Source: Couchioplanes caeruleus
Lineage (GTDB): Bacteria > Actinomycetota > Actinomycetes > Mycobacteriales > Micromonosporaceae
NCBI RefSeq assembly: GCF_023499255.1
Contig: NZ_CP092183.1
Location: 4,398,501 to 4,462,500 of the forward strand
Length of the DNA: 64,000 nucleotides
Reading direction: 5' to 3'
The translations under genes were made by a program, and so were the position numbers. The number at the start of each line of letters is the position of its first letter. The first letter of the stretch is position 1. Positions 51,716 through 64,000 of the stretch are shown piece after piece. The notes beneath the pieces are model-generated. The model was given only the letters and a program-made list of their open reading frames with translations, did not search any database and was not told the origin of the DNA.

Positions 51716-52577
51716 GGGGCACCAGCCCGGGCCGGCCGGCGTCGGGCATCAGCGCCGCGAGGAAGGCTTCGGGCGGGGTGCTCGCGGGGCGGTCGCTGAC
51801 CTGGCCGTCGCCGAGCTCGATGACCCGCCACCGGCCGTCGTCGCGCAGCGCCAGGTCGACGGTGACGAACGGCAGGCCGAGGGCGCCGATCCCGGACAGG
51901 TCCACGTCGGCGGGCGGCAGGCCGGCGGGGGAGTCGGGGTGGGCGGTGACCAGCCGGCACTCGCCGCCGACCCACCAGGTCCGCACCTCCGCCGCGGTGA
52001 ACGACTCGAACCGGCGGAGCACGAAACCGCCCGTGAAGTCGTCGCCGCGCAGCTCCCGGAACCGGCTCGCGACCCGCCAGGCCGCGTCACCGTCGGCGAC
52101 GTCCGGGATGTACGCGGCCTCGTGCCAGTAGTGCTTCATCGACTTCGTGTAGTCGCGCAGCACGGCCGGCCCCTCACCCAGCTCCGCGCGCGCCTTGTCG
52201 AACCCGTCCCGGTCGTCGCCGGCCGTCCACACCGTCTCGGGGGTGACCTGCGCCAGGGAGTCGTACCAGCCCGGCAGTTCGTGCGCCTGCCGGTACTGGC
52301 CGGCGGTGGTCGCGAGGACGACACCACGGCCGGCCAAGGATCGTTCCAGGGCGGCGTAGTGTTCCGCGCGCAGCATCCAGCCCCGGTATGTGGCGGGGCC
52401 GCTGACCCGTACCGTCGAAACGGCCGTGTCCGCACCACCGTCACGCGCGGCAGCGTCGTGGTCGATCAGCGCGACCGCGATGCCCGCCTCGCGGGCCGCG
52501 GCCGCCTCCGCGGCGAAATGCTCGTCCGGCCGTCGCGGCCGCAGCGGATCCGACGGTACGAGCAGCAGCGGCGTCAC
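51705..52577 (-). CDS. ATP-grasp domain protein coupled to selD
   Basis: 290 residues. An N-terminal Rossmann-like part (MTPLLLVPSDPLRPRRPDEHFAAEAAAAREAGIAVALIDHD) precedes a central and C-terminal ATP-grasp-like region. That region contains VLRDYTKSMKHYWHEAAYIPD (lysine-bearing region), FVLRRFESFTAAEVRTWWVGGECRL and VTVDLALRDDGRWRVIELGDGQVSD; the final acidic-rich E-x-G-D-G loop is the Mg-ATP site. ATP-grasp enzymes ligate carboxylates to amines or thiols; the substrate here is unknown. ATGA overlap with selD shows translational coupling, which hints at a selenium- or thiol-linked role, unproven. Confidence 0.75.
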   Translation of the reverse strand: MTPLLLVPSDPLRPRRPDEHFAAEAAAAREAGIAVALIDHDAAARDGGADTAVSTVRVSGPATYRGWMLRAEHYAALERSLAGRGVVLATTAGQYRQAHELPGWYDSLAQVTPETVWTAGDDRDGFDKARAELGEGPAVLRDYTKSMKHYWHEAAYIPDVADGDAAWRVASRFRELRGDDFTGGFVLRRFESFTAAEVRTWWVGGECRLVTAHPDSPAGLPPADVDLSGIGALGLPFVTVDLALRDDGRWRVIELGDGQVSDRPASTPPEAFLAALMPDAGRPGLVPHAG

Positions 52578-53578
52578 CGCAGCTCGAGGGTCTTGCCGTC
52601 GGGGCGTGCAGGCAGCAGCTCGCCGATCACGGGGTATCCGGGCACCTCGCCGGCGACGAGCAGGCCGCCGGAGGTCTGCGCGTCGGCGAGCAGCAGCAGC
52701 TCGTCGGCGGCGACGCCGCCGGTGTCGGCGTGCGGCATCACCCAGTCCAGGTTGCGCCGCGTGCCGCCGCTGACGTACCCGTCGCGCAGCGCCTCGCGTG
52801 CGCCCTCGAGGTACGGGACCGCGCTCGCGTCGATCCGGGCGGTGACCCCGCTAGCCCGGGCGAGTTTGTGCAGGTGGCCGAGGAGCCCGAAGCCGGTGAC
52901 GTCGGTGGCGCAGACCGCGCCGGCCGCCACGGCCGCCTCGGCCGCGGCGCGGTTCAGCTCGGTCATCGCGGCGACGGCCTGCGCGAACACCTCGCCGGTC
53001 GACTTGTGCCGGCTGTTCAGCACGCCGATGCCGAGCGGCTTGGTGAGCGTGAGCGGCGTACCGGCGACGCCCGCGTCGTTGCGCATGAGGTGGGCCGGGT
53101 CGGCGACGCCGGTGACGGCCATGCCGTACTTGGGCTCCGGGTCGTCGACGCTGTGCCCGCCGGCGACGTGACAGCCGGCCTCCCGGGCGATCGCCAGGCC
53201 GCCGCGCAGGACCTCGCCGGCCAGCTCCATCGGCAGCAGGTCACGGGGCCAGGCGAGCAGGTTGACGGCGACGACCGGGCTGCCGCCCATCGCGTACACG
53301 TCGGAGAGCGCGTTGGCCGCGGCGATCCGGCCCCAGTCGTACGCGTCGTCCACGACGGGCGTGAAGAAGTCGGCGGTGGCGACGACGGCCATGCCCGCGG
53401 CCAGCTTCACCACGGCGGCGTCGTCCCCGTCGTCCAGCCCGACGAGCAGCTCGCCCGGGCCGCGCGGGGTGGCATCGCCGATGAGGTTGGACACGACGGC
53501 TTCGAGCTCGCCGGGCGGGATCTTGCAGGCACATCCGCCGCCGTGGGCGTACTGGGTGAGGCGTTGAGGTTGCGTCAT
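52574..53578 (-). CDS. selD: Selenide, water dikinase (selenophosphate synthase)
   Basis: 334 residues from ATG 53578. The catalytic loop is GGGCACKIPPGEL with C16 (equivalent to E. coli C17) and K19; cysteine, not selenocysteine, is used. It has DDAAVVKLAAGMAVVATADFFTPVVDDAYDWGRIAAANALSDVYAMGG (metal/ATP aspartates), HSVDDPEPKYGMAVTG and CATDVTGFGLLGHLHKLA, the SelD signatures. It converts selenide and ATP to selenophosphate for SelA. It is the first gene of an operon with the ATP-grasp and beta-flower genes and is divergent from tRNA-Sec at 53771. Confidence 0.96.
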   Translation of the reverse strand: MTQPQRLTQYAHGGGCACKIPPGELEAVVSNLIGDATPRGPGELLVGLDDGDDAAVVKLAAGMAVVATADFFTPVVDDAYDWGRIAAANALSDVYAMGGSPVVAVNLLAWPRDLLPMELAGEVLRGGLAIAREAGCHVAGGHSVDDPEPKYGMAVTGVADPAHLMRNDAGVAGTPLTLTKPLGIGVLNSRHKSTGEVFAQAVAAMTELNRAAAEAAVAAGAVCATDVTGFGLLGHLHKLARASGVTARIDASAVPYLEGAREALRDGYVSGGTRRNLDWVMPHADTGGVAADELLLLADAQTSGGLLVAGEVPGYPVIGELLPARPDGKTLELR

Positions 53579-53770
53579 CGTCACCCTGGAACTGTTGCAC
53601 GGCCGGGAGGAGGCCGCACGTGCGCTCGGCGGCGTCTGCCACGCTTCTCGCGCGGGGCGCGCCCGACAGCTCGACTCCCCGCCCAGGTGGCGGACGTCAT
53701 GCGGGCTGCAGGCTGCAGGCTGCCGAGGGTTGCGCGGCGGGCGGGCCGGCCGGCGGCTAGGGTGATCGGC

Positions 53771-53863
53771 GGAGGCGTTCAGGTGGCTGGTGCCCCTCCC
53801 GGTCTTCAAAACCGGTGTGGCCCGGTATCCGGGCCAGGCGAGTTCGATTCCCGTCCGCCTCCG
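53771..53863 (+). tRNA. selC: tRNA-Sec (anticodon TCA)
   Basis: A 93-nt cloverleaf. The acceptor stem GGAGGCG (53771-53777) pairs with CGCCTCC (53856-53862). The anticodon stem CCGGT (53799-53803) and ACCGG (53811-53815) encloses loop CTTCAAA with anticodon TCA at 53806-53808. A long variable arm, TGGCCCGG (53818-53825), loop TAT, CCGGGCCA (53829-53836), and T arm GCGAG with TTCGATT complete it. A TCA anticodon plus an extended variable arm identify it as tRNA-Sec, the UGA decoder used by fdhA. CCA is not encoded. Confidence 0.93.
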
Positions 53864-54071
53864 CTCATCCACGCGGCCTTTTCCCGCGGGTGCCCGGTGG
53901 CCGCGCGGGTCCCCGGCCGGCGAAGAGCGGGACCTGCGACAACGGCGTAGCGACTCCGGCTGCGAGGACATCGTCCGGAAGCCAGACTGTGGTACATGGT
54001 GACGGCCTGATGATTCGCGGCCGCTGTGGCAGGTTATTGGGTGTGACAGGGTCGGTTGCCCGGAGGTGGTA

Positions 54072-54428
54072 GTGGGTTTGCAGTTGGCGGCGCGGGCCGG
54101 CAGGGCTTGCACGGTCGTGGAGGTCGGCGGGCAGGTGGACATGGCCACCGGACCCGAGCTGCACGATTTCCTCCAGCAGGTCACCGCCGGCAAGGGCGGC
54201 CCGCAGCTGGTGCTGGACCTGGCCGACGTGTCCTTCCTGGATTCCAGCGGCCTGGGTGTGCTGCTGGTCTGGTTCAAGGAGTTGCACGGTGCGGGCGGCC
54301 GGTTGTGCGTCGCGGGGTTGCAGGAGCCCGTCGCCTCTGTGCTGCGGCTGACGGCCGTGGACCAGGTGCTGGACGTGTACGACTCCGTGGAGGCGGCCGA
54401 GGCGGACATGCCCCCGGTGGCGTCCTGA
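54072..54428 (+). CDS. STAS-domain anti-anti-sigma factor
   Basis: 118 residues from GTG 54072 (GGAGG five bases upstream). STAS fold: CTVVEVGGQVDMATGPELHDFLQQV, then QLVLDLADVSFLDSSGLGVLLVWFKELH with the phosphorylatable serine in LDSSGLGVL, and LRLTAVDQVLDVYDSVEAAEA. It is convergent with a SpoIIE-type phosphatase gene 14 bp away; such pairs usually work together in partner-switching (phosphatase reactivates the STAS protein, which frees a sigma factor). Confidence 0.85.
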   Translation: MGLQLAARAGRACTVVEVGGQVDMATGPELHDFLQQVTAGKGGPQLVLDLADVSFLDSSGLGVLLVWFKELHGAGGRLCVAGLQEPVASVLRLTAVDQVLDVYDSVEAAEADMPPVAS

Positions 54429-56724: not shown

Positions 56725-56747
56725 GAACCGTTTGGGATCATCCGGCG

Positions 56748-57143
56748 ATGACCTCTTACGTGTCGCACACCACCGTGGACTGCGCCGATGCCTACGCCCT
56801 GTCGCGGTGGTGGCAGGCCGTCCTGGACTACCGCGAGGACCCGGACGACCCGAACGAGCCCGGCCACGAGGAATGCCTGATCTCCTCGGCCGACGGACGG
56901 CACCGCCTGCTCTTCATCGAGGTGCCGGAGCCCAAGCAGACCAAGAACCGCATCCACCTCGACCTGCGGCCCGCCGACGGCACCCGCGACGCGGAGCTGG
57001 CCCGGCTGGTCGGTCTCGGCGCGGCCGTCGTGGCGGATCGCCGCAACCCGGACGGTACGGGATGGGCCGTGCTCGCCGACCCGGAGGGCAACGAGTTCTG
57101 CATCCTGCGCAGCGAGGCCGAGGTCGCGGGCCGCCAACCGTGA
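56748..57143 (+). CDS. VOC superfamily (glyoxalase-like) protein
   Basis: 131 residues from ATG 56748: SHTTVDCADAYALSRWWQAVLDYRED, LLFIEVPEPKQTKNRIHLDLRPADGTRDAELARLVGLGA, DGTGWAVLADPEGNEFCILRS. The H/E-bearing strands HLDL and GNEFCIL are the metal site of the single-module VOC fold, of the type commonly annotated as glyoxalase-like. It follows the GNAT gene by 23 bp. Role unknown. Confidence 0.85.
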   Translation: MTSYVSHTTVDCADAYALSRWWQAVLDYREDPDDPNEPGHEECLISSADGRHRLLFIEVPEPKQTKNRIHLDLRPADGTRDAELARLVGLGAAVVADRRNPDGTGWAVLADPEGNEFCILRSEAEVAGRQP

Positions 57144-57153
57144 GCCGATCGGG

Positions 57154-57357
57154 CTAGCGGTCGAACTCCCCGGCCTTCACCCCGGCAAGGAACGACCGCC
57201 ACTCACCCGGCGCGAAGATCAGGGCGGGCCCTCCGGGAGCCTTCGAGTCACGCACCGCGACGACGCCCGGGAGGTTGTCGGCCACCTCGACGCAGTCACC
57301 GCCGGCGTTACCGCTGCTGCGTGAGCTCTTGTGCCACTCGGCGCCCGTCAGGTCCAT
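57154..57357 (-). CDS. DUF397 protein (copy 1)
   Basis: 67 residues from ATG 57357: MDLTGAEWHKSSRSSGNAGGD, CVEVADNLPGVVAVRDSKAPGG, EWRSFLAGVK. Diagnostic DUF397 blocks are W-x-KSSxSxxxGxCVEV and VRDSK. DUF397 proteins pair with Scr1-type XRE regulators in actinobacteria, linked to morphology and antibiotic control in streptomycetes. It is the near-twin of copy 2 at 59763, sharing a 92-bp almost identical stretch. The truncated XRE gene overlaps its start by 10 bp. Confidence 0.9.
   Translation of the reverse strand: MDLTGAEWHKSSRSSGNAGGDCVEVADNLPGVVAVRDSKAPGGPALIFAPGEWRSFLAGVKAGEFDR
57212..57303. repeat. 92-bp near-identical repeat, copy 1 (DUF397 gene)
   Basis: Matches 59821-59912 in the same orientation with two visible substitutions. 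The pair flanks the OLD-like gene, 2.6 kb apart, so homologous recombination could excise that gene. The high identity within otherwise diverging DUF397 genes suggests recent duplication or gene conversion. Confidence 0.85.
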
Positions 57358-57557
57358 CGGTTCGCCGCCTCCGCGATCAGGGCGAGACTCTCCTGCCTCG
57401 GCACTGCCTCGGCTCGCACAGCCTCCCATACCTCATGGAGCATCGCCACGGTCGACGGTGCGTCCACCATCGAGCCGTTGATCTGGTTGTCGAGGTAGGC
57501 GACGTCTCTTCCCTCGAACGGCGAGGCGATGACGAACGGGCCGAGTTGCTCGCGCAT
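57348..57557 (-). pseudogene. C-terminal fragment of a DUF5753/Scr1-type XRE regulator
   Basis: A 69-residue remnant: ends GPFVIASPFEGRDVAYLDNQ...EAANRWT, which lines up with the last 65 residues of the intact XRE protein at 59954-60760 (GPFVLASPFEGRDTAYLDNQ...EVADQWT). The DNA-binding helix-turn-helix and about 200 residues are missing. Upstream of the break there is a short GC-rich gap and a 46-nt perfect palindrome. It cannot act as a regulator on its own. It overlaps the DUF397 start, as in the intact pair. Confidence 0.88.
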
Positions 57558-57560
57558 TCA

Positions 57561-57606
57561 CGCCGTGCCGCCGACCGGCCGAGCTCGGCCGGTCGGCGGC
57601 ACGGCG
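57561..57606. repeat. 46-nt perfect palindrome at the island edge
   Basis: Bases 57561-57606 are a perfect inverted repeat with two 23-bp arms and no loop, centred on GAGCTC (57581-57586). The arms read CGCCGTGCCGCCGACCGGCC plus GAG and its complement. It lies only 3 bp beyond the truncated XRE fragment and 67 bp from the end of the OLD-like gene. It could be a strong terminator for the OLD-like gene (its 3' side), or a recombination or replication scar. Its perfection over 46 bp is exceptional in this window. Confidence 0.92.
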
Positions 57607-57673
57607 AGATCCATCGTTGACTTGGTTTGATCCGTCGCATCCGGGTAGAAGGGCGCTTAACCGGGCAGAGGTG

Positions 57674-59524
57674 CTAGGCGAGAATTGCCGCTAGTGCTCC
57701 TGGGGAAATTGGCTCCTGAGCGGCGATTGCGGCCACCTTGTGTATGTGATGCTGCGCCGGTGAATGGGTATGCGCTCCAGCCTCCAAGGATGCGCGCAAC
57801 CAACGAGGCCCCTTGCGCACGTCGACTCCAGGCGCAAGGCGTTCCAATTCTCCTTCTCGAAGGACAATTAACCCAATGGCGTCAAGCGCGTCGAGAAGCC
57901 GAGTCGCATGGACATATTCCGAAGGATTGGTGAACGCCTTGACGCCATATCGTTTCAAAGCTGCCCAAGGGCTTTCTGAGGAACGCATCTGAGCTAGTAC
58001 CTGGGACTTCAGTTCATCGTCGTAGATGCGGTAAGGATCTATCTCTAGCACCGAACTTACTGCCATTAGCACATCGCTGGACTTCGCTGGCCCCCGGGAG
58101 GATCGGAAGCTCTGCGTTGCGGCGCGATACGGGCCTTGAAATAGTTTCCAATCATACCCAAGGGCTCGAACGAGTTTGCTGAGTGTGCCTTCTTCGTTCA
58201 AGATATCAAGATCTGGCGTGACGATCACGCGGACTCCGAGCTCAACCAGGGTGGCAGCGATATCCGCCATGGCCGCTTTGCCGTTGGATGGGACAAACAA
58301 GGCTTCGCTGGGTGGTATATGAGTTCCTTCCAACCCCTTTGTTGCTTGCTCCTCTTCATCGTTGGCGGCGTCGAGGGCGGCGTTGTAAAAACGACAGTCA
58401 TCGTCAGCTTCGGCTATGACGACAAAACGGTGGAATAACCCATCGAGGACGTTGCTGTATCGCACGACCGGGTCTTGCCACAGACCTTTCAAGCGGGCGT
58501 CCTGGAGTTGAGTCGTCCTGGCTGCTCCGGCGCCAAAGCGCTCCAAGCGCACGACGGAGACCGGAACACGCGGCTGCAGCAGGCCTGTTAGAAAATTTCG
58601 GTCATGGGTAGCAGCAATGACCTGGACCCGCCGTTCTCGGGCGATCGTTGCGACCGCCTTGCCCAACTCGAAAGCTTGCGGAGGATGGAGGAATGCTTCA
58701 GGTTCATCCATGATGATGATCGGGTACGAAGCGGTAATGATCGGCATCAAGAGGCCGAGCATGCTCTTCATGCCGTCACCCTGACTGCCGAGTGGCGGGA
58801 GCGCCATGACTGCCTCGGCGTAAGTCTCGTCTGGGGCGTCGATCGGGGGCGGCGCGACGTCCACGCGACCTACATGCAGACTGAGCTGCCCGATTAAGTA
58901 GTTCAAAGTGAGCGGTTGGCGAAAGATCCGTTCGCTCAGCGATGAGAACTGTTCGAATAGATCCTTGTCGAATTCGAAAAGGCTGAGAACGCTCCGAGGC
59001 TGGTCGCTTCGTCGCAAGCGTTGCATCGCGCTGACGGAAACCATATTGGCTCGTTGTGTGACAGTTGAGACGTGCACCAGAAAGCTGTATAACTCACCAA
59101 GCGAATGCCGCTCGCGTTGCGATCTGAATTGATCCCACCTGGCCTCCGCCTGCTGTAGCGTGACGAACTCTCCGGCGTCTTTCGCTCGGGTGAATATTGG
59201 TCCCCCTGACTCGCCGACGTTCATGTGCGCGTGTTGAGTGAGCCAGGATTCGAAGTCGATCCCACGCCCCCGTCTACGCAAAGATAGGTGCGTCACGGCA
59301 AGGCTCTGGTTCGCTGCGTCCATCAACTGCTCGTTGATGCTGTTCAACATGGAGGACTTGCCTGCATTGTTTCCCCCGACGAAGACTGTTACTCCAGTCT
59401 CCGGTAACTCGATCTGCTGACCACCCGTTGCGTATAAAGTGTCGATACTCAACGCCCAGCTTTCTGGATTCGGTGGGTCGCTCGCGCCAAATTCGGGAGA
59501 CTCGTACGGCATGCGGGTGTCCAT
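57674..59524 (-). CDS. OLD-like ATPase with TOPRIM domain (candidate nuclease)
   Basis: 616 residues of lower GC (about 52-55%) than its neighbours. The ATPase half has Walker A VGGNNAGKSSML (about 50-60), the signature-like GSQGDGMKSMLGLL (about 246-259), Walker B PIIIMDEPEAFLHPPQ (D273, E274) and the switch AATHDRNFLTG (H307). The second half has a TOPRIM-like fold: FVVIAEADDDCRFY (E372) and VRVIVTPDLDILNEEG (D438, D440), the acidic residues of OLD family nucleases. The C-terminal region holds AKRYGVKAF-like segments with no known domain. OLD-type proteins are phage-defence or recombination nucleases; standalone (not the GajAB pair). Probably acquired horizontally. Confidence 0.85.
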   Translation of the reverse strand: MDTRMPYESPEFGASDPPNPESWALSIDTLYATGGQQIELPETGVTVFVGGNNAGKSSMLNSINEQLMDAANQSLAVTHLSLRRRGRGIDFESWLTQHAHMNVGESGGPIFTRAKDAGEFVTLQQAEARWDQFRSQRERHSLGELYSFLVHVSTVTQRANMVSVSAMQRLRRSDQPRSVLSLFEFDKDLFEQFSSLSERIFRQPLTLNYLIGQLSLHVGRVDVAPPPIDAPDETYAEAVMALPPLGSQGDGMKSMLGLLMPIITASYPIIIMDEPEAFLHPPQAFELGKAVATIARERRVQVIAATHDRNFLTGLLQPRVPVSVVRLERFGAGAARTTQLQDARLKGLWQDPVVRYSNVLDGLFHRFVVIAEADDDCRFYNAALDAANDEEEQATKGLEGTHIPPSEALFVPSNGKAAMADIAATLVELGVRVIVTPDLDILNEEGTLSKLVRALGYDWKLFQGPYRAATQSFRSSRGPAKSSDVLMAVSSVLEIDPYRIYDDELKSQVLAQMRSSESPWAALKRYGVKAFTNPSEYVHATRLLDALDAIGLIVLREGELERLAPGVDVRKGPRWLRASLEAGAHTHSPAQHHIHKVAAIAAQEPISPGALAAILA

Positions 59525-59762
59525 GCCAATATGTTACTGCGTCTATTGTGGTCTATGGAAAGGCCTGCCGCATAATCCGATGATAGAGCGTGCGCTGACA
59601 CTCCAACTCCGGCTATGGATTGGCGCTTTCGTTCAGAGGCAACGGCGATCACGCGTAGCGCCCCTGCTTGTAGGAACGAGCGAATGCGTCTGGGGACGAG
59701 ACGGAGATGCGTCGAACCTCATGCGCCCTTGAGCCCTCGTGCCCGCCTTGCAGGTAGGTGAC

Positions 59763-59963
59763 TCAGGTATCGAATTCGCCCACTTTGACAGCAGCTACGA
59801 ACGACCGCCACTCGTCCCGCGCGAAGATCAGGGCGGGTCCTCCGGGAGCCTTCGAGTCACGCACCGCGACGACGCCCGGGAGGTTGCCGGCCACCTCGAC
59901 GCAGTCACCGCCGTTGCCGCTGCTGCGCGAGCTCTTGCGCCACTTGGCCTCGGTCAGGTCCAC
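59763..59963 (-). CDS. DUF397 protein (copy 2)
   Basis: 66 residues from GTG 59963: MDLTEAKWRKSSRSSGNGGD, CVEVAGNLPGVVAVRDSKAPGG, EWRSFVAAVK. Same DUF397 blocks as copy 1. The start overlaps the XRE gene stop by 10 bp, as in the canonical pair. With the XRE regulator immediately upstream it forms the intact pair of the two copies here. Confidence 0.9.
   Translation of the reverse strand: MDLTEAKWRKSSRSSGNGGDCVEVAGNLPGVVAVRDSKAPGGPALIFARDEWRSFVAAVKVGEFDT
59821..59912. repeat. 92-bp near-identical repeat, copy 2 (DUF397 gene)
   Basis: The partner of the repeat at 57212-57303, in the same orientation, with two visible substitutions. Confidence 0.85.
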
Positions 59964-60760
59964 TGGTCCGCCACCTCCGAGATCAAGGCGAGTGTCTGTT
60001 GCCGTGGCAGCGCCTCGGCACGCACAGCCTCCCATGCCTCCTGGAGTACTGCTACCTCCTCGGCGGCGTCGACGACGGTGCCCTTGATCTGGTTGTCGAG
60101 GTAGGCGGTGTCTCTGCCCTCGAACGGTGATGCGAGGACGAACGGGCCGCTCAGGCCGGTGTAGCCGCCGACGGCCCTCGGCACGACGTGGATGTGGATG
60201 TTCGGCCGTCCGGCCAATTCGATCAGTCGGAGCAGCTGGGCCCGCATCGTGGACGGGCCGCCGATCGGCCGTTCGAGAACCGTCTGATCGAGGACGGCGA
60301 CGATCAGCGGGGGCGGGGTGCGGTCCAGCACCTGCTGTCGTTCGATACGGCTGGCGACGATCTGCTCGACCTGGTCGGACTGCAGGGGACTGCCGGTCGC
60401 GCAGAGGGCGTGTGCGTATGCCGGGGTCTGGAAGAGGCCCGGCAGGACGAGCGGCTGGAACGAGCGCAAGGCCCGGGCGTCGCGTTCGATGGCCGCCCAT
60501 TCCCGGAACCAGGGGAGCAGCGATTCCCGGACCGTCGCCTCGCGGATGCGCAAGAGGAGGCCTCCGCCGCCCAGCGCCTCGTCGCACTTCTGGGCGAAGT
60601 CCATCCGCGGCGGCCGGCGGCACTGTTCGACGGCCGCAACCAGTGACGCCGAATAGCTGATCTTTTCGGCGAGAGCCTCCTGTGACAGGCCAGCCCCGCA
60701 GCGGAGGCGGCGCAGTTCGCCTGCGAACAGTTCCAAGACCTGGAGTTGCGTCACCTGCAC
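59954..60760 (-). CDS. XRE-family regulator with DUF5753 (Scr1-type)
   Basis: 268 residues. The N-terminal HTH (about 8-62) is LELFAGELRRLRCGAGLSQEALAEKISYSASLVAAVEQCRR. A DUF5753 ligand domain follows (about 85-262): SFQPLVLPGLFQTPAYAHAL, VASRIERQQVL, PLIVAVLDQTVLERPIGG, QLLRLIELAGRPNIHIHVVPR and GPFVLASPFEG. These regulators act with a DUF397 protein, encoded just downstream. Its 3' part is the intact form of the fragment at 57348-57557. Confidence 0.92.
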   Translation of the reverse strand: MQVTQLQVLELFAGELRRLRCGAGLSQEALAEKISYSASLVAAVEQCRRPPRMDFAQKCDEALGGGGLLLRIREATVRESLLPWFREWAAIERDARALRSFQPLVLPGLFQTPAYAHALCATGSPLQSDQVEQIVASRIERQQVLDRTPPPLIVAVLDQTVLERPIGGPSTMRAQLLRLIELAGRPNIHIHVVPRAVGGYTGLSGPFVLASPFEGRDTAYLDNQIKGTVVDAAEEVAVLQEAWEAVRAEALPRQQTLALISEVADQWT

Positions 60761-61005
60761 GCTCCTGCACTGGGGCCCATCGAAGTCTTACAAGCTCGTT
60801 GTGGCGGTCTTGAGACTTCCGAAGGTGTCGATGCGTGCGCAAGGGTGTCACCCAGACGGCCGGCTGGAACGGGTGGCAGATTGCATGCCAAGGACAGGTC
60901 GCGTCGTGCGGGCCGCCTCCATCTCCTGGGGGGGCGGTCCGCTGACCGCGCCCGCAGAGCCAACCTGCCGCCGCCAGATCCCGTCGTGATCCGGGGAGGT
61001 CGGAA

Positions 61006-61137
61006 ATGGTGGATGAGTGGCATGCGGCGCGCGGGCGCCGGTGGTGGTTCCTCGGGCGCCGGCGCTGCGTGTGTGGTCTGCCGTGGCCGTGCGTCGACGC
61101 GAGGCTGCGGGAGGTCCGACGGCTCCGGCGCGGGTGA
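61006..61137 (+). CDS. Small Cys/Arg/Trp-rich 43-residue protein
   Basis: ATG 61006 is preceded at six bases by GGGGAGG (60993-60999), the strongest ribosome site of this stretch. The product begins MVDEWHAARGRRWWFLGRRR and continues CVCGLPWPCVDARLREVRR. A WWFLGRR core and three cysteines (CxC and C) suggest a tiny metal-binding or membrane-surface protein. It is too short for most gene finders. Divergent from the XRE gene (245-bp gap). I recognise no family for certain. Confidence 0.65.
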   Translation: MVDEWHAARGRRWWFLGRRRCVCGLPWPCVDARLREVRRLRRG

Positions 61138-61159
61138 CGCGGCCCGCTACCCTGGCGCG

Positions 61160-61528
61160 ATGATCACCCGGACGGCGGCAGCGAAGATCGTCGTCATCGG
61201 CCTCGGCGTGCTCGGTTGTCTCTGGGTGTTGTGGTTCTTCGCGCTCATGGCCTTCGGCAGCGAGGGTGCGCTGCCGCCGAAGTCGCGGATTCCCGCCGTG
61301 CCGGCCGGCGCGAGCGTCGTCGAGCAGAGCGAGCAGTGCGGGTCCGGTGGGTGCTGGTGGCAGCTCGTCCTGGCGCCCGCCGCCGGGCAGTCGCCGGCCG
61401 ACCTCGCCCGCCGGATGGGGCTCACCGAGGAGCAGAGCCTGTCGCCTGAGCTGTTCGACCCCGGATACGTCTACGTGGGGTCCGAAACGCGAGGTGACCG
61501 CCTGGTCGTCCACGTCGGGTACCAGTGA
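61160..61528 (+). CDS. Single-span membrane protein of unknown function
   Basis: 122 residues from ATG 61160, preferred because the ORF upstream is GC-shadow sequence. One N-terminal span (KIVVIGLGVLGCLWVLWFFALMAFG), then an external domain with QCGSGGCWWQLVLAP and ADLARRMGLTEEQSLSPELFDP ... DRLVVHVGYQ. The external pair of cysteines could form a disulfide. It lies 22 bp after the 43-residue gene, so the two may be one transcript. Confidence 0.7.
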   Translation: MITRTAAAKIVVIGLGVLGCLWVLWFFALMAFGSEGALPPKSRIPAVPAGASVVEQSEQCGSGGCWWQLVLAPAAGQSPADLARRMGLTEEQSLSPELFDPGYVYVGSETRGDRLVVHVGYQ

Positions 61529-61576
61529 CAGCGTGCCTGGCTTGCGCCGGGCGCCGCGGACCTGTGAGGTACCAGG

Positions 61577-62149
61577 ATGAGCAACCCCGGCACCGCCGTC
61601 ACCTACCTCCTCATCGACGGGGAGAACATCGACTCGACCCTCGGGCAGCAGATCCTCGATCATCGTCCCAATCCGGACGAGCGGCCCCGGTGGGAGCGGT
61701 TGCGGCAGTTCGCCGAGGAGACGTGGGGACAGGCCGTGACGGCCCTGTTCTTCCTGAACGCGTCGTCCGGGGCGTTGCCGACCCCGTTCATCCGGGCCCT
61801 GCAGTCGATGGACTACCGGCCGATCCCGCTGTCCGGCGGCCCGGGGCAGAAGGTGGTGGACATCGGTATCCAGCGCACGCTGGACGCCATCGGCAAGCGC
61901 CGCGGGGACGTGCTGCTGGCCAGCCACGACGGGGACTTCCTGCCGCACATCGGGCGGCTGCTGCGCGACGACGGGCGGCGGGTCGGGGTCGTCGGGTTCC
62001 CCGAGTTCTTCAATTCCGGGTTCGACCACCTGGTCGGCGACGGGCTGGAGCTGTTCGACCTGGAGCTGGACGCGGGATGTTTCACCAGCGTGCTGCCCCG
62101 CGTCCGGATCCTGCCGATCGACACCTTCGACCCTGAACCGTTTCTGTAG
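61577..62149 (+). CDS. NYN-domain (LabA/PIN-like) protein
   Basis: 190 residues: the NYN start YLLIDGENIDSTLGQQIL with the metal Asp, LRQFAEETWGQAVTALFFLN, KVVDIGIQRTLDAI with an Asp, and RRGDVLLASHDGDFLPHIGRLL, where ASHDGDF is the second acidic cluster. NYN proteins are PIN-fold RNases; here all four acidic positions look present, so RNA cleavage is plausible. Target unknown. It lies 48 bp after the preceding gene, in the same direction. Confidence 0.82.
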   Translation: MSNPGTAVTYLLIDGENIDSTLGQQILDHRPNPDERPRWERLRQFAEETWGQAVTALFFLNASSGALPTPFIRALQSMDYRPIPLSGGPGQKVVDIGIQRTLDAIGKRRGDVLLASHDGDFLPHIGRLLRDDGRRVGVVGFPEFFNSGFDHLVGDGLELFDLELDAGCFTSVLPRVRILPIDTFDPEPFL

Positions 62150-62289
62150 AAAGGGGCAGAGCCGGGTGCCTGCCGTTCCCCCGGGTGGCGCGCGTCGCCC
62201 AGGATGGGACGGCAGGGATCGAGCCCAACCGGTCGCCAGGGCCCGTGAGCCCGAGGCGGGGCAGATCCACCACCGTTCAGGAGACTCCC

Positions 62290-63267
62290 GTGCCAACCCC
62301 CTCCCGTACGATCCGCATCGCCGTGGTCTCAGGCGCTGCCCTCGTGATGGCGGCCGGCGCGTCGTACGCCATGGCGAACGACACCGCAGCACAGAAGAGC
62401 GGCCAGCAGGCGAGGAGCGTCAAGGCGTTCCCGGCGAACGCGAAGTTCGACTACCAGATCGGCGCCGCGTACACGCCGCCGTCCGGGGTGAAGGTCGTCA
62501 GCCGTGACGTCGGCGCGACGCCCGCCGCCGGGCTGTACAACGTCTGCTACATCAACGGTTTCCAGACGCAGCCCGACGACGGCGCGGGCGGCGAGGGCAC
62601 CAGCCAGTGGTTCGCCGCCGACTCCGCGCGGCGCAAGCTGCTGCTGCCCAACCCGACGCCGGGCGTGCCGACCGCCGACGACGGCGGGAAGTACTCGCGG
62701 GACTTCTACGTCGACCCCGGCTGGCCGGACGAGATCATGTTCGACGTGCGGACGGCGGCGAACCGGGACGCGCTGGCGCAGATCATCGGGCGGCAGGTCA
62801 CGACCTGTGCGAGCAAGGGCTTCGACGCCGTCGAGGTGGACAACATCGACACCTTCACCCGGGCGTACGCGAACGTCGAGGACCGCAAGCGGGCCAAGGA
62901 CGACCCCGACTTCGACGGTACGGACGCACCGAAGCTGATGACCTCCGCACAGGCGCTGGCGTACGCGAAGCTCCTCATCGATCGCGCCCACGCGGCCGGT
63001 CTCTCGATCGCCCAGAAGAACACCGCGGAGCTGGAGGGCGACGGCAAGGCCGCCGGGTTCGACTTCGCCGTGGTCGAGGAGTGCGGGAGCACCGGGGAGT
63101 GCGCTGACTACGCCGGGGTCTACGGCGGCAAGTGGGTCGACGTCGAGTATTCGTCGTCCGGGTTCACGAAGGCGTGCCGCAGCGTCAAGAGCAAGATCTC
63201 GGTGGTACGCCGGGACCAGATGGTCACCGCACCCGGCTCGGGGACGTACGTCTACGACGAGTGCTGA
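62290..63267 (+). CDS. Secreted GH114-like endo-alpha-1,4-polygalactosaminidase
   Basis: 325 residues from GTG 62290 (CAGGAG seven bases upstream). A signal peptide (RTIRIAVVSGAALVMAAGASYA) precedes a TIM-barrel domain. It has FDYQIGAAYTPPSGVKVVSRDV, GLYNVCYINGFQTQPDD, YSRDFYVDPGWPDEIMFDVRT, GFDAVEVDNIDTFTRAY with catalytic-type Glu/Asp, and LSIAQKNTAEL, FAVVEECG. These are the family 114 blocks. It would cleave galactosaminogalactan-type polymers of fungi or bacteria. It is the last gene before selA, 48 bp away. Confidence 0.82.
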   Translation: MPTPSRTIRIAVVSGAALVMAAGASYAMANDTAAQKSGQQARSVKAFPANAKFDYQIGAAYTPPSGVKVVSRDVGATPAAGLYNVCYINGFQTQPDDGAGGEGTSQWFAADSARRKLLLPNPTPGVPTADDGGKYSRDFYVDPGWPDEIMFDVRTAANRDALAQIIGRQVTTCASKGFDAVEVDNIDTFTRAYANVEDRKRAKDDPDFDGTDAPKLMTSAQALAYAKLLIDRAHAAGLSIAQKNTAELEGDGKAAGFDFAVVEECGSTGECADYAGVYGGKWVDVEYSSSGFTKACRSVKSKISVVRRDQMVTAPGSGTYVYDEC

Positions 63268-63315
63268 CCCGCCGCCGGGTACGGTGAATCCGGCGACAGG
63301 GCGAGGAGGCGCGGG

Positions 63316-64000
63316 TTGGGTGACACCACGGTGGATCCGCGGCGCCGGATCCCGCGTACCGATGCCGTGCTCGCCGACCCCCGGATAGCCGCCGCCATCC
63401 CGCGTCTCGGGCGCGGGCCGGTCAAGGCCGCGGTCGTCGCCGCTCAGCAGCGCGCCCGCACCGGGGAGATCGCCCCCGGCGATGTGGCCGCGGCCGCCCT
63501 GGAGGCTCTGCCGGGCACCCCGGGCGGCCTGCGGCCGGTCCTGAACGCGACCGGCGTCGTGCTGCACACCAACCTGGGCCGGGCCGCGCTGTCGGCGGCC
63601 GCGGTCGCGGCGGTCGCGGCGGCGAGCGGGCACACCGACGTCGAGCTGGACCTGGCGACCGGACGGCGGGCCCGGCGGGGCCGGGGCGCGCTCGCGGCGC
63701 TGGCGGCGGCCGTGCCGGACGCGGGCGGCGTGCACGTGGTCAACAACGGCGCGGCCGCGCTCGTGCTGGCCGCCACCGCGCTCGCCGCCGGCCGGGAGAT
63801 CGTGGTGAGCCGCGGCGAGCTGGTCGAGATCGGCGACGGGTTCCGGCTGCCCGACCTGCTGGAGTCGACCGGGGCGCGGTTGCGCGAGGTCGGCACCACC
63901 AACCGCACGTCGTACGCCGACTACGCCGAGGCGGTGGGCCCGGGCACCGGCTTCGTCCTCAAGGTGCACCCGTCGAACTTCGTGGTGCGCGGCTTCACCC
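63316..64000 (+). CDS. selA: L-seryl-tRNA(Sec) selenium transferase, N-terminal part
   Basis: Starts at TTG 63316 (GAGGAGG upstream) or GTG 63331 and runs off the window end after about 228 residues. SelA blocks are RRRIPRTDAVLADPRIAAAI, LRPVLNATGVVLHTNLGRAAL, the PLP-fold VHVVNNGAAALVLAATALA, EIVVSRGELVEIGDGFRLPDLL, REVGTTNRTSYADYAEAV and VLKVHPSNFVVRGF. It is a PLP enzyme that converts Ser-tRNA-Sec to Sec-tRNA-Sec using selenophosphate. The PLP lysine is beyond the window; selB is expected next. Together with selD, selC and fdhA it completes most of the Sec pathway here. Confidence 0.94.
   Translation, partial: MGDTTVDPRRRIPRTDAVLADPRIAAAIPRLGRGPVKAAVVAAQQRARTGEIAPGDVAAAALEALPGTPGGLRPVLNATGVVLHTNLGRAALSAAAVAAVAAASGHTDVELDLATGRRARRGRGALAALAAAVPDAGGVHVVNNGAAALVLAATALAAGREIVVSRGELVEIGDGFRLPDLLESTGARLREVGTTNRTSYADYAEAVGPGTGFVLKVHPSNFVVRGFT

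Follow-up and report, generated by a model that had tools for sequence, protein, structure and literature searches.

The window, a 64,000-nucleotide stretch of Couchioplanes caeruleus DNA from a genome of one 8.42-Mb contig, carries an OLD-type gene within an XRE-DUF397 regulator locus, in a unit of about 2.6 kb whose entry most likely took place through homologous recombination within a DUF397 gene. Taking the two parts jointly, we think it quite likely that an OLD-carrying donor recombined inside the resident DUF397 gene and that the encoded protein works as a Class 1-like enzyme. The supports for this reading come from sequence and are a foreign base composition, an empty site in a sister genome, two hybrid DUF397 genes and intact motifs in the OLD protein. 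The OLD gene belongs to a known family, and XRE-DUF397 pairs are themselves long known; the entry route is the unusual and interesting part. What seems to be new here is the pair of hybrid DUF397 genes, in which both halves of the scar are still readable.

In an earlier note, an ATPase-TOPRIM gene was placed at positions 57674-59524, with a GC content clearly below that of the 73% surroundings. Both observations held. The gene is an open reading frame of 616 codons on the minus strand, its product (P0001) is of the OLD kind, and its GC content is 0.571, compared with 0.728 for the whole window. Stretches of the same length (1,851 bp) elsewhere in the window, taken at 57,697 start positions that all lie outside about 57400-60000, have a minimum GC of 0.683 and a mean of 0.734 (standard deviation, 0.021). 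At third codon positions the OLD gene has a GC content of 0.629, against 0.83 to 0.93 in six flanking genes. The 238-bp spacer 5' of the gene (59525-59762, minus strand; GC 0.584) is as AT rich as OLD itself and probably arrived with it. A full-length match was found in 1 of 67 genomes of the genus, the window's own, while three others contain a partial match limited to 76 to 141 ATPase residues at 32 to 39% identity. At an E value of 1e-30 or lower, 7 of 354 family genomes, the window's own included, carry a relative, the best of the others at 42% identity; the closest proteins in a large database are 55 to 57% identical. Since its own genome alone in the genus carries the gene and the corresponding site in a sister genome is empty, comparison marks OLD as foreign and inserted. 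The opposing picture named in the earlier note, an OLD-like gene of native GC content that keeps its syntenic place throughout the genus, was searched for and was not found.

The comparison with an orthologous locus lacking the insert, which the note had proposed, could be made with the sister genome G022. Its locus has one XRE-DUF397 pair and no OLD gene, and a single run of its contig (L115, 8759-13451) spans window positions 56729-57543 and 59770-64000, the two window segments overlapping on that contig at 9191-9570. On its left side the empty site is flanked by a native glyoxalase-fold gene (56748-57143, plus strand); in genus-wide DNA searches, among the matches listed, only G022 has this gene contiguous with DUF397. 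The nearest XRE orthologues among the matches listed are those of G022, G024, G006 and G020, all four of which are without OLD, and G024, G006 and G020 have one copy at the locus in the DNA matches listed. Further left in G022, about 4.9 kb with an M48/M56 peptidase-type gene (L115, 3896-8759) replaces about 0.6 kb with a GNAT gene in the window, so that variation extends to the region on the left side of the insert.

On the minus strand, the window locus reads XRE, DUF397, the 238-bp spacer, OLD, a 26-bp inverted repeat, an XRE remnant and a second DUF397, and the glyoxalase-fold gene lies convergent with the latter beyond the left end of the series. The right-hand pair consists of an intact native regulator (59954-60760, minus strand) with HTH_31 and DUF5753 domains (Pfam), 98% identical to the XRE of G022 among the matches listed, and DUF397 copy 2 (59763-59963, minus strand). 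This pair is an ordinary member of the XRE-DUF397 pairs of the Scr1/Scr2 and WhiJ/BldB type. DUF397 copy 1 (57154-57357, minus strand) starts at about 57357. Both DUF397 genes are supported by Pfam (E values of 8e-24 and 5e-24), and the two copies form direct repeats, with two blocks of 80% and 86% identity. These data bear out the description of OLD as bracketed by two DUF397/XRE loci, with the right-hand pair intact. They also agree with the statement that one XRE is reduced to its C terminus: the remnant is readable at 57348-57557 (minus strand) as 69 residues covering DUF5753 positions 121-178 of 178. Inspection of the translations by eye indicates that the HTH is gone, that about 28 residues are missing internally and that a stop precedes the first Met. 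The open reading frame at 57377-57640 was considered as the remnant and rejected, being in the wrong frame and having no Pfam match. Among 120 listed XRE homologues, the nearest relative of the remnant is P0134, a DUF5753-only protein (80% identity), whereas the end of the native XRE is 98% identical to P0121; the foreign half was thus probably derived from a related but different XRE-DUF397 pair.

The remnant ends in the inverted repeat, which lies at its junction with OLD (57558-57609), has no loop and is 96% complementary. The left arm is XRE coding sequence and the right arm is an inverted copy of it; no second occurrence of the arm was found within the window. The palindrome folds strongly (z of -4.25, equalled by 0 of 200 shuffles). 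It resembles a fold-back junction or else a made terminator, and it may be a candidate terminator of the OLD transcript. A promoter scan of both strands gave no match and no T-tailed terminator was detected on the strand of OLD, in scans that cover GC-rich actinobacterial signals poorly.

The DUF397 genes themselves indicate how the unit probably entered. The two window copies share a near-identical tract of 95 bp (57210-57304 and 59819-59913) with 2 mismatches, whereas 50-column blocks beside it are 76% identical on the left and 68 to 86% on the right; we take it to be a crossover or conversion tract. To the left of the tract, the single G022 copy agrees with copy 1 at 9 of 14 differing sites, with copy 2 at 3 and with neither at 2. 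To the right, with 48 differing sites, the corresponding counts are 2, 43 and 3, a switch in agreement that is significant by Fisher's test (p 1.2e-6). Inside the tract there is one site for each copy. When the full alignment is counted, with its flanks and the palindrome, the G022 sequence sides with copy 1 at 33 sites, with copy 2 at 84 and with neither at 10. By eye, the start of the G022 DUF397 protein resembles copy 2 and its end resembles copy 1. Because the single G022 copy matches the left DUF397 leftward and the right DUF397 rightward, each window gene appears to be a hybrid, half native and half foreign: copy 1 would have a native 3' end and a foreign 5' part, and copy 2 a foreign 3' end and a native 5' part. 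In this respect the locus differs from ordinary XRE-DUF397 pairs, in that DUF397 is the apparent recombination site, both DUF397 genes are hybrid and one XRE is a remnant. The note had portrayed a mobile defence cargo dropped beside a duplicated regulator. The foreign, inserted nature of the gene stands, given its presence in 1 of 67 genus genomes and the empty site, but the duplicated regulator is not supported as a reading: because both DUF397 genes are hybrid, the second DUF397 looks like part of the entry scar instead.

These features would fit a donor segment in which a stand-alone OLD gene lay beside an XRE-DUF397 pair related to the local one and which recombined with the resident pair within the DUF397 gene. 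The observed arrangement would follow from one crossover if the donor DNA was circular (or in tandem). The product would be, on the left, a native DUF397 3' end with a foreign 5' end and the foreign XRE remnant, followed by OLD, and, on the right of OLD, a foreign DUF397 3' end fused to a native 5' end, with the native XRE beyond it. This is the simplest geometry, its topology being presumed, and an alternative may be a double crossover with a donor that already had this structure. No donor with XRE, DUF397 and OLD in the window order was found. Apart from reading frames that reach outside it, OLD is the only open reading frame of more than 100 codons in the 2.6-kb unit, the ends of which fall in DUF397 homology; two 97-codon frames within it gave no Pfam match. 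Around the unit, the scan of neighboring genes revealed, besides DUF397 and XRE, two glyoxalase-fold genes, a GNAT gene, a SpoIIE-type phosphatase, an NYN-domain gene and a GH114 gene, and some neighboring open reading frames had no match in Pfam. The scanned genes of the locus include no integrase or transposase, and the unit thus lacks the enzyme of its own by which an integrative mobile element is defined. As in defence hotspots, for example those of P2 and P4 phages described in PMC9122126, a defence-type gene has been swapped in at one place; unlike those hotspots, the window locus shows no integrase or transposase, and entry would be through homology in a many-copy regulator gene. Two further loci in the window were recorded. 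The NYN-domain (PIN-like nuclease) gene (61577-62149, plus strand) lies 0.8 kb to the right of XRE in a native stretch that is 93% identical in G022. A tRNA-SeC gene with anticodon TCA (53771-53864, plus strand; ARAGORN) overlaps a minus-strand open reading frame with AIR-synthase domains (52574-54409), which suggests a selenocysteine locus.

In its features the OLD protein conforms to a Class 1-like OLD nuclease of the stand-alone kind, and the residues of its ATPase and TOPRIM domains are intact. Its N-terminal part matches AAA_21 and AAA_15 above the Pfam cutoff. In 30 aligned rows, G50, N52, N53, G55, K56 and S57 are conserved in at least 90%, and D273, E274, H307, E372, D376, D438 and D440 are invariant (30 of 30). 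We take these to be, in order, Walker A, Walker B, the histidine after Walker B (H-loop) and four acidic TOPRIM residues (E372, D376, D438 and D440). The architecture is thus that expected of Class 1: an N-terminal ABC-type ATPase, a C-terminal TOPRIM domain with acidic active-site residues and, among the neighbors scanned, a single gene with no helicase or reverse transcriptase partner, nor any other known OLD partner. The OLD-like_TOPRIM family (PF20469) was detected in 17 of 30 relatives and was not reached by P0001 itself at an E value of 0.01. A profile search of the PDB gave Thermus scotoductus OLD (6P74) as the best match (E value of 2.1e-13), in an alignment that extends to the DxD motif; a single-sequence search with P0001 matched no PDB chain. 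The predicted model has a mean pLDDT of 88. The top rows of the Foldseek search comprise the retron Eco8 OLD (the best), 6p74 and GajA, alongside SMC and Rad50 heads, with TM-scores of about 0.3 across the whole chain. In the VIA fold search, SMC heads come first because the rows cover residues 19-367; the OLD-family chains in the rows shown are of the retron and PtuA types, with one PARIS entry, and the lack of other OLD chains there says nothing against OLD membership. The proposed PADLOC search was run and returned Old as the top model (E value of 2.7e-14) over part of the chain, with AriA and others close behind.

The protein shares the plan of a stand-alone gene with ATPase and TOPRIM domains with the Class 1 proteins P2 Old, T. 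scotoductus OLD (6P74) and Escherichia coli YbjD, and, like them, it has a scattered distribution with relatives in viral contigs; its subgroup differs in its own conserved motifs, QGDGM[KR]S and DEPEAFLHPPQA. Gabija GajA (Class 2) has the same two-domain plan and appears among the Foldseek and PADLOC matches, but Gabija includes a UvrD-like GajB, and no adjacent UvrD/PcrA/Rep-like gene was found by the Pfam scan of the neighbors; membership of Gabija was therefore rejected. Although the Class 3 effector of retron Eco8 is the best Foldseek match, retrons pair the OLD gene with a reverse transcriptase and an ncRNA, and no reverse transcriptase was present among the neighbors scanned, so that this class was rejected as well. 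PARIS was rejected because it has an AriA ATPase and a separate AriB TOPRIM gene, whereas the window protein has both domains in one chain and no second TOPRIM gene was seen among the neighbors scanned.

Relatives were collected by an alignment-based scan of genome contigs, which recovered 428 of 484 stretches, and 80 of these were kept; a scan with P0001 alone found no relative. With neighboring reading frames chosen by a crude longest-frame rule, both for recurrence and for arrangement, the commonest shared neighbor cluster occurs at 5 of 83 loci, and no partner is recurrent. PADLOC analysis of 124 neighbor proteins from the 31 best loci (best 25 of 173 families) revealed scattered restriction, DISARM-type and other genes, one or two of each. 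Pfam matches of the same proteins (best 25 of 83 families) include three resolvases, two IS21 and two DDE transposases and many ordinary metabolic genes. GajB lies near 1 of 31 relatives among the matches listed; this is a Nocardia locus (L019, 2925-4871) in which a GajB-type helicase (E value of 5e-132) lies upstream of the OLD relative with one open reading frame between them, possibly a separate Gabija system. Viral contigs contain 47 relatives, including several weak or partial matches. The scattered spread, the relatives in viral contigs and the neighbors together look like the picture of a mobile stand-alone defence gene, which is not proof.

The mosaic pattern also has to be weighed against other histories. 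If the insertion predated the split from G022, and G022 later lost OLD by recombination between the DUF397 copies, the deletion crossover would leave the same hybrid single copy, as a deletion scar; the left side of the mosaic, moreover, comprises only 14 sites, of which 3 favor copy 2 and so count against the entry we propose. We regard such a loss as unlikely, given that 66 of 67 genus genomes are without the gene, G022, G024, G006 and G020 among them, and that the GC content of OLD is still far from native. In addition, both window copies agree against G022 at 6 of 93 tract sites, and an event in the window lineage is therefore favored; we infer gain there rather than loss in G022. An old tandem XRE-DUF397 array that received OLD in an unrelated event and later underwent gene conversion between its two DUF397 genes would account for the 95-bp tract, and the same genome does hold a DUF397 cluster elsewhere, with at least four matches within 2 kb (8162860-8164729). 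Such an array is decidedly unlikely in view of the single copy in G022 and the one copy each in G024, G006 and G020 in the matches listed, and conversion alone leaves the switch of G022 from copy 1 on the left to copy 2 on the right unexplained. Recombination of a donor inside the resident DUF397 remains our preferred reading of these data.

Two further alternatives concern function. The earlier note had suggested that OLD is controlled by the Scr1-type XRE/DUF397 pair, which lies on the same strand 238 bp away. This proposal is not supported. The 238 bp between DUF397 and OLD are as AT rich as OLD, and among the relatives XRE or DUF397 occurs close to OLD in 3 of 86 entries, equivalent to 2 of 83 distinct loci and in other orientations, so that the gene order expected of an XRE-DUF397-regulated system is not conserved and a conserved OLD-XRE-DUF397 operon was rejected. 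In G098, an OLD relative of 31% identity and DUF397/XRE are convergent and 218 bp apart (L129, 7513-9577), and in a Micromonospora genome (G180), DUF397 lies 2.7 kb from the OLD relative, divergent and with an open reading frame between. A DUF397 within 2.7 kb in 2 of 6 other OLD-bearing family genomes does exceed expectation (0.12; P of 0.006), a post hoc result in that the distance was chosen after the data had been seen; at 5 kb the expectation is 0.21 (P of 0.02), and absence in the remaining four genomes refers to the OLD flanks searched. Orientation and spacing are unlike in all three cases, which argues against coregulation and weakly for shared landing places. With the pair native and OLD the later arrival, a functional XRE-DUF397-OLD system is very improbable, and OLD may now be read from the promoter of the pair by chance. 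Such pairs were once proposed as toxin-antitoxin systems (PMC2701414), and both families are described as unusually divergent within one Streptomyces species (PMC4239341); of 14 Streptomyces coelicolor pairs tested, none is reported to have behaved as a toxin-antitoxin system (PMC10364602). As for the protein, we consider it likely to be a phage-defence enzyme. As a Class 1-like OLD, an ATPase dimer would sense a phage-caused disturbance and the TOPRIM domain would then cut nucleic acid; we infer the dimer, the role in phage defence, the trigger and the substrate. P2 Old reportedly answers RecBC inhibition and cuts host tRNA (cited in PMC13261556), and the TOPRIM domain of YbjD is reported to be dispensable for its phage phenotype (PMC13261556), so that nucleic acid cleavage may not be the active step. 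The archaeal OLD-family protein Cran1, described as serving the cell cycle rather than defence (PMC12796447), lends some weight to the idea that the window gene has no part in defence and encodes an ATPase for housekeeping or repair, or that it is a decaying passenger. That idea is somewhat unlikely, considering the sporadic spread, the foreign GC content, the relatives found in viral contigs or, here and there, next to restriction genes, and the retention of the conserved residues.

More broadly, the many-copy XRE-DUF397 genes of the Micromonosporaceae might serve as homologous landing pads through which defence genes settle without an integrase, a generalization that we regard as speculative and on present evidence unlikely to hold. 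The conserved DUF397 core would let a defence gene borne by one pair recombine into another, leaving hybrid DUF397 genes behind. Among the matches listed, other DUF397 copies show about 68 to 80% DNA identity in dozens of congeners, each of seven genomes has 9 to 56 DUF397 matches, and OLD lies within 2.7 kb of DUF397 in 3 of 7 OLD-bearing family genomes, the window's own included. The parts of the literature on DUF397, phage, defence islands and recombination that were consulted do not describe DUF397 as a site of integration, a weak negative. Stand-alone OLD genes have been called rare and poorly understood, with an occurrence in 0.45% of bacterial genomes according to a figure cited in PMC13261556. 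The window supplies an intact member in a family of filamentous actinobacteria, with an empty-site sister, G022, that allows a clean comparison. The scar suggests a way for a defence-type gene without a mobility gene to settle by recombination in a many-copy regulator family, and the presence of hybrid DUF397 genes in other genomes could serve to test this route of entry.
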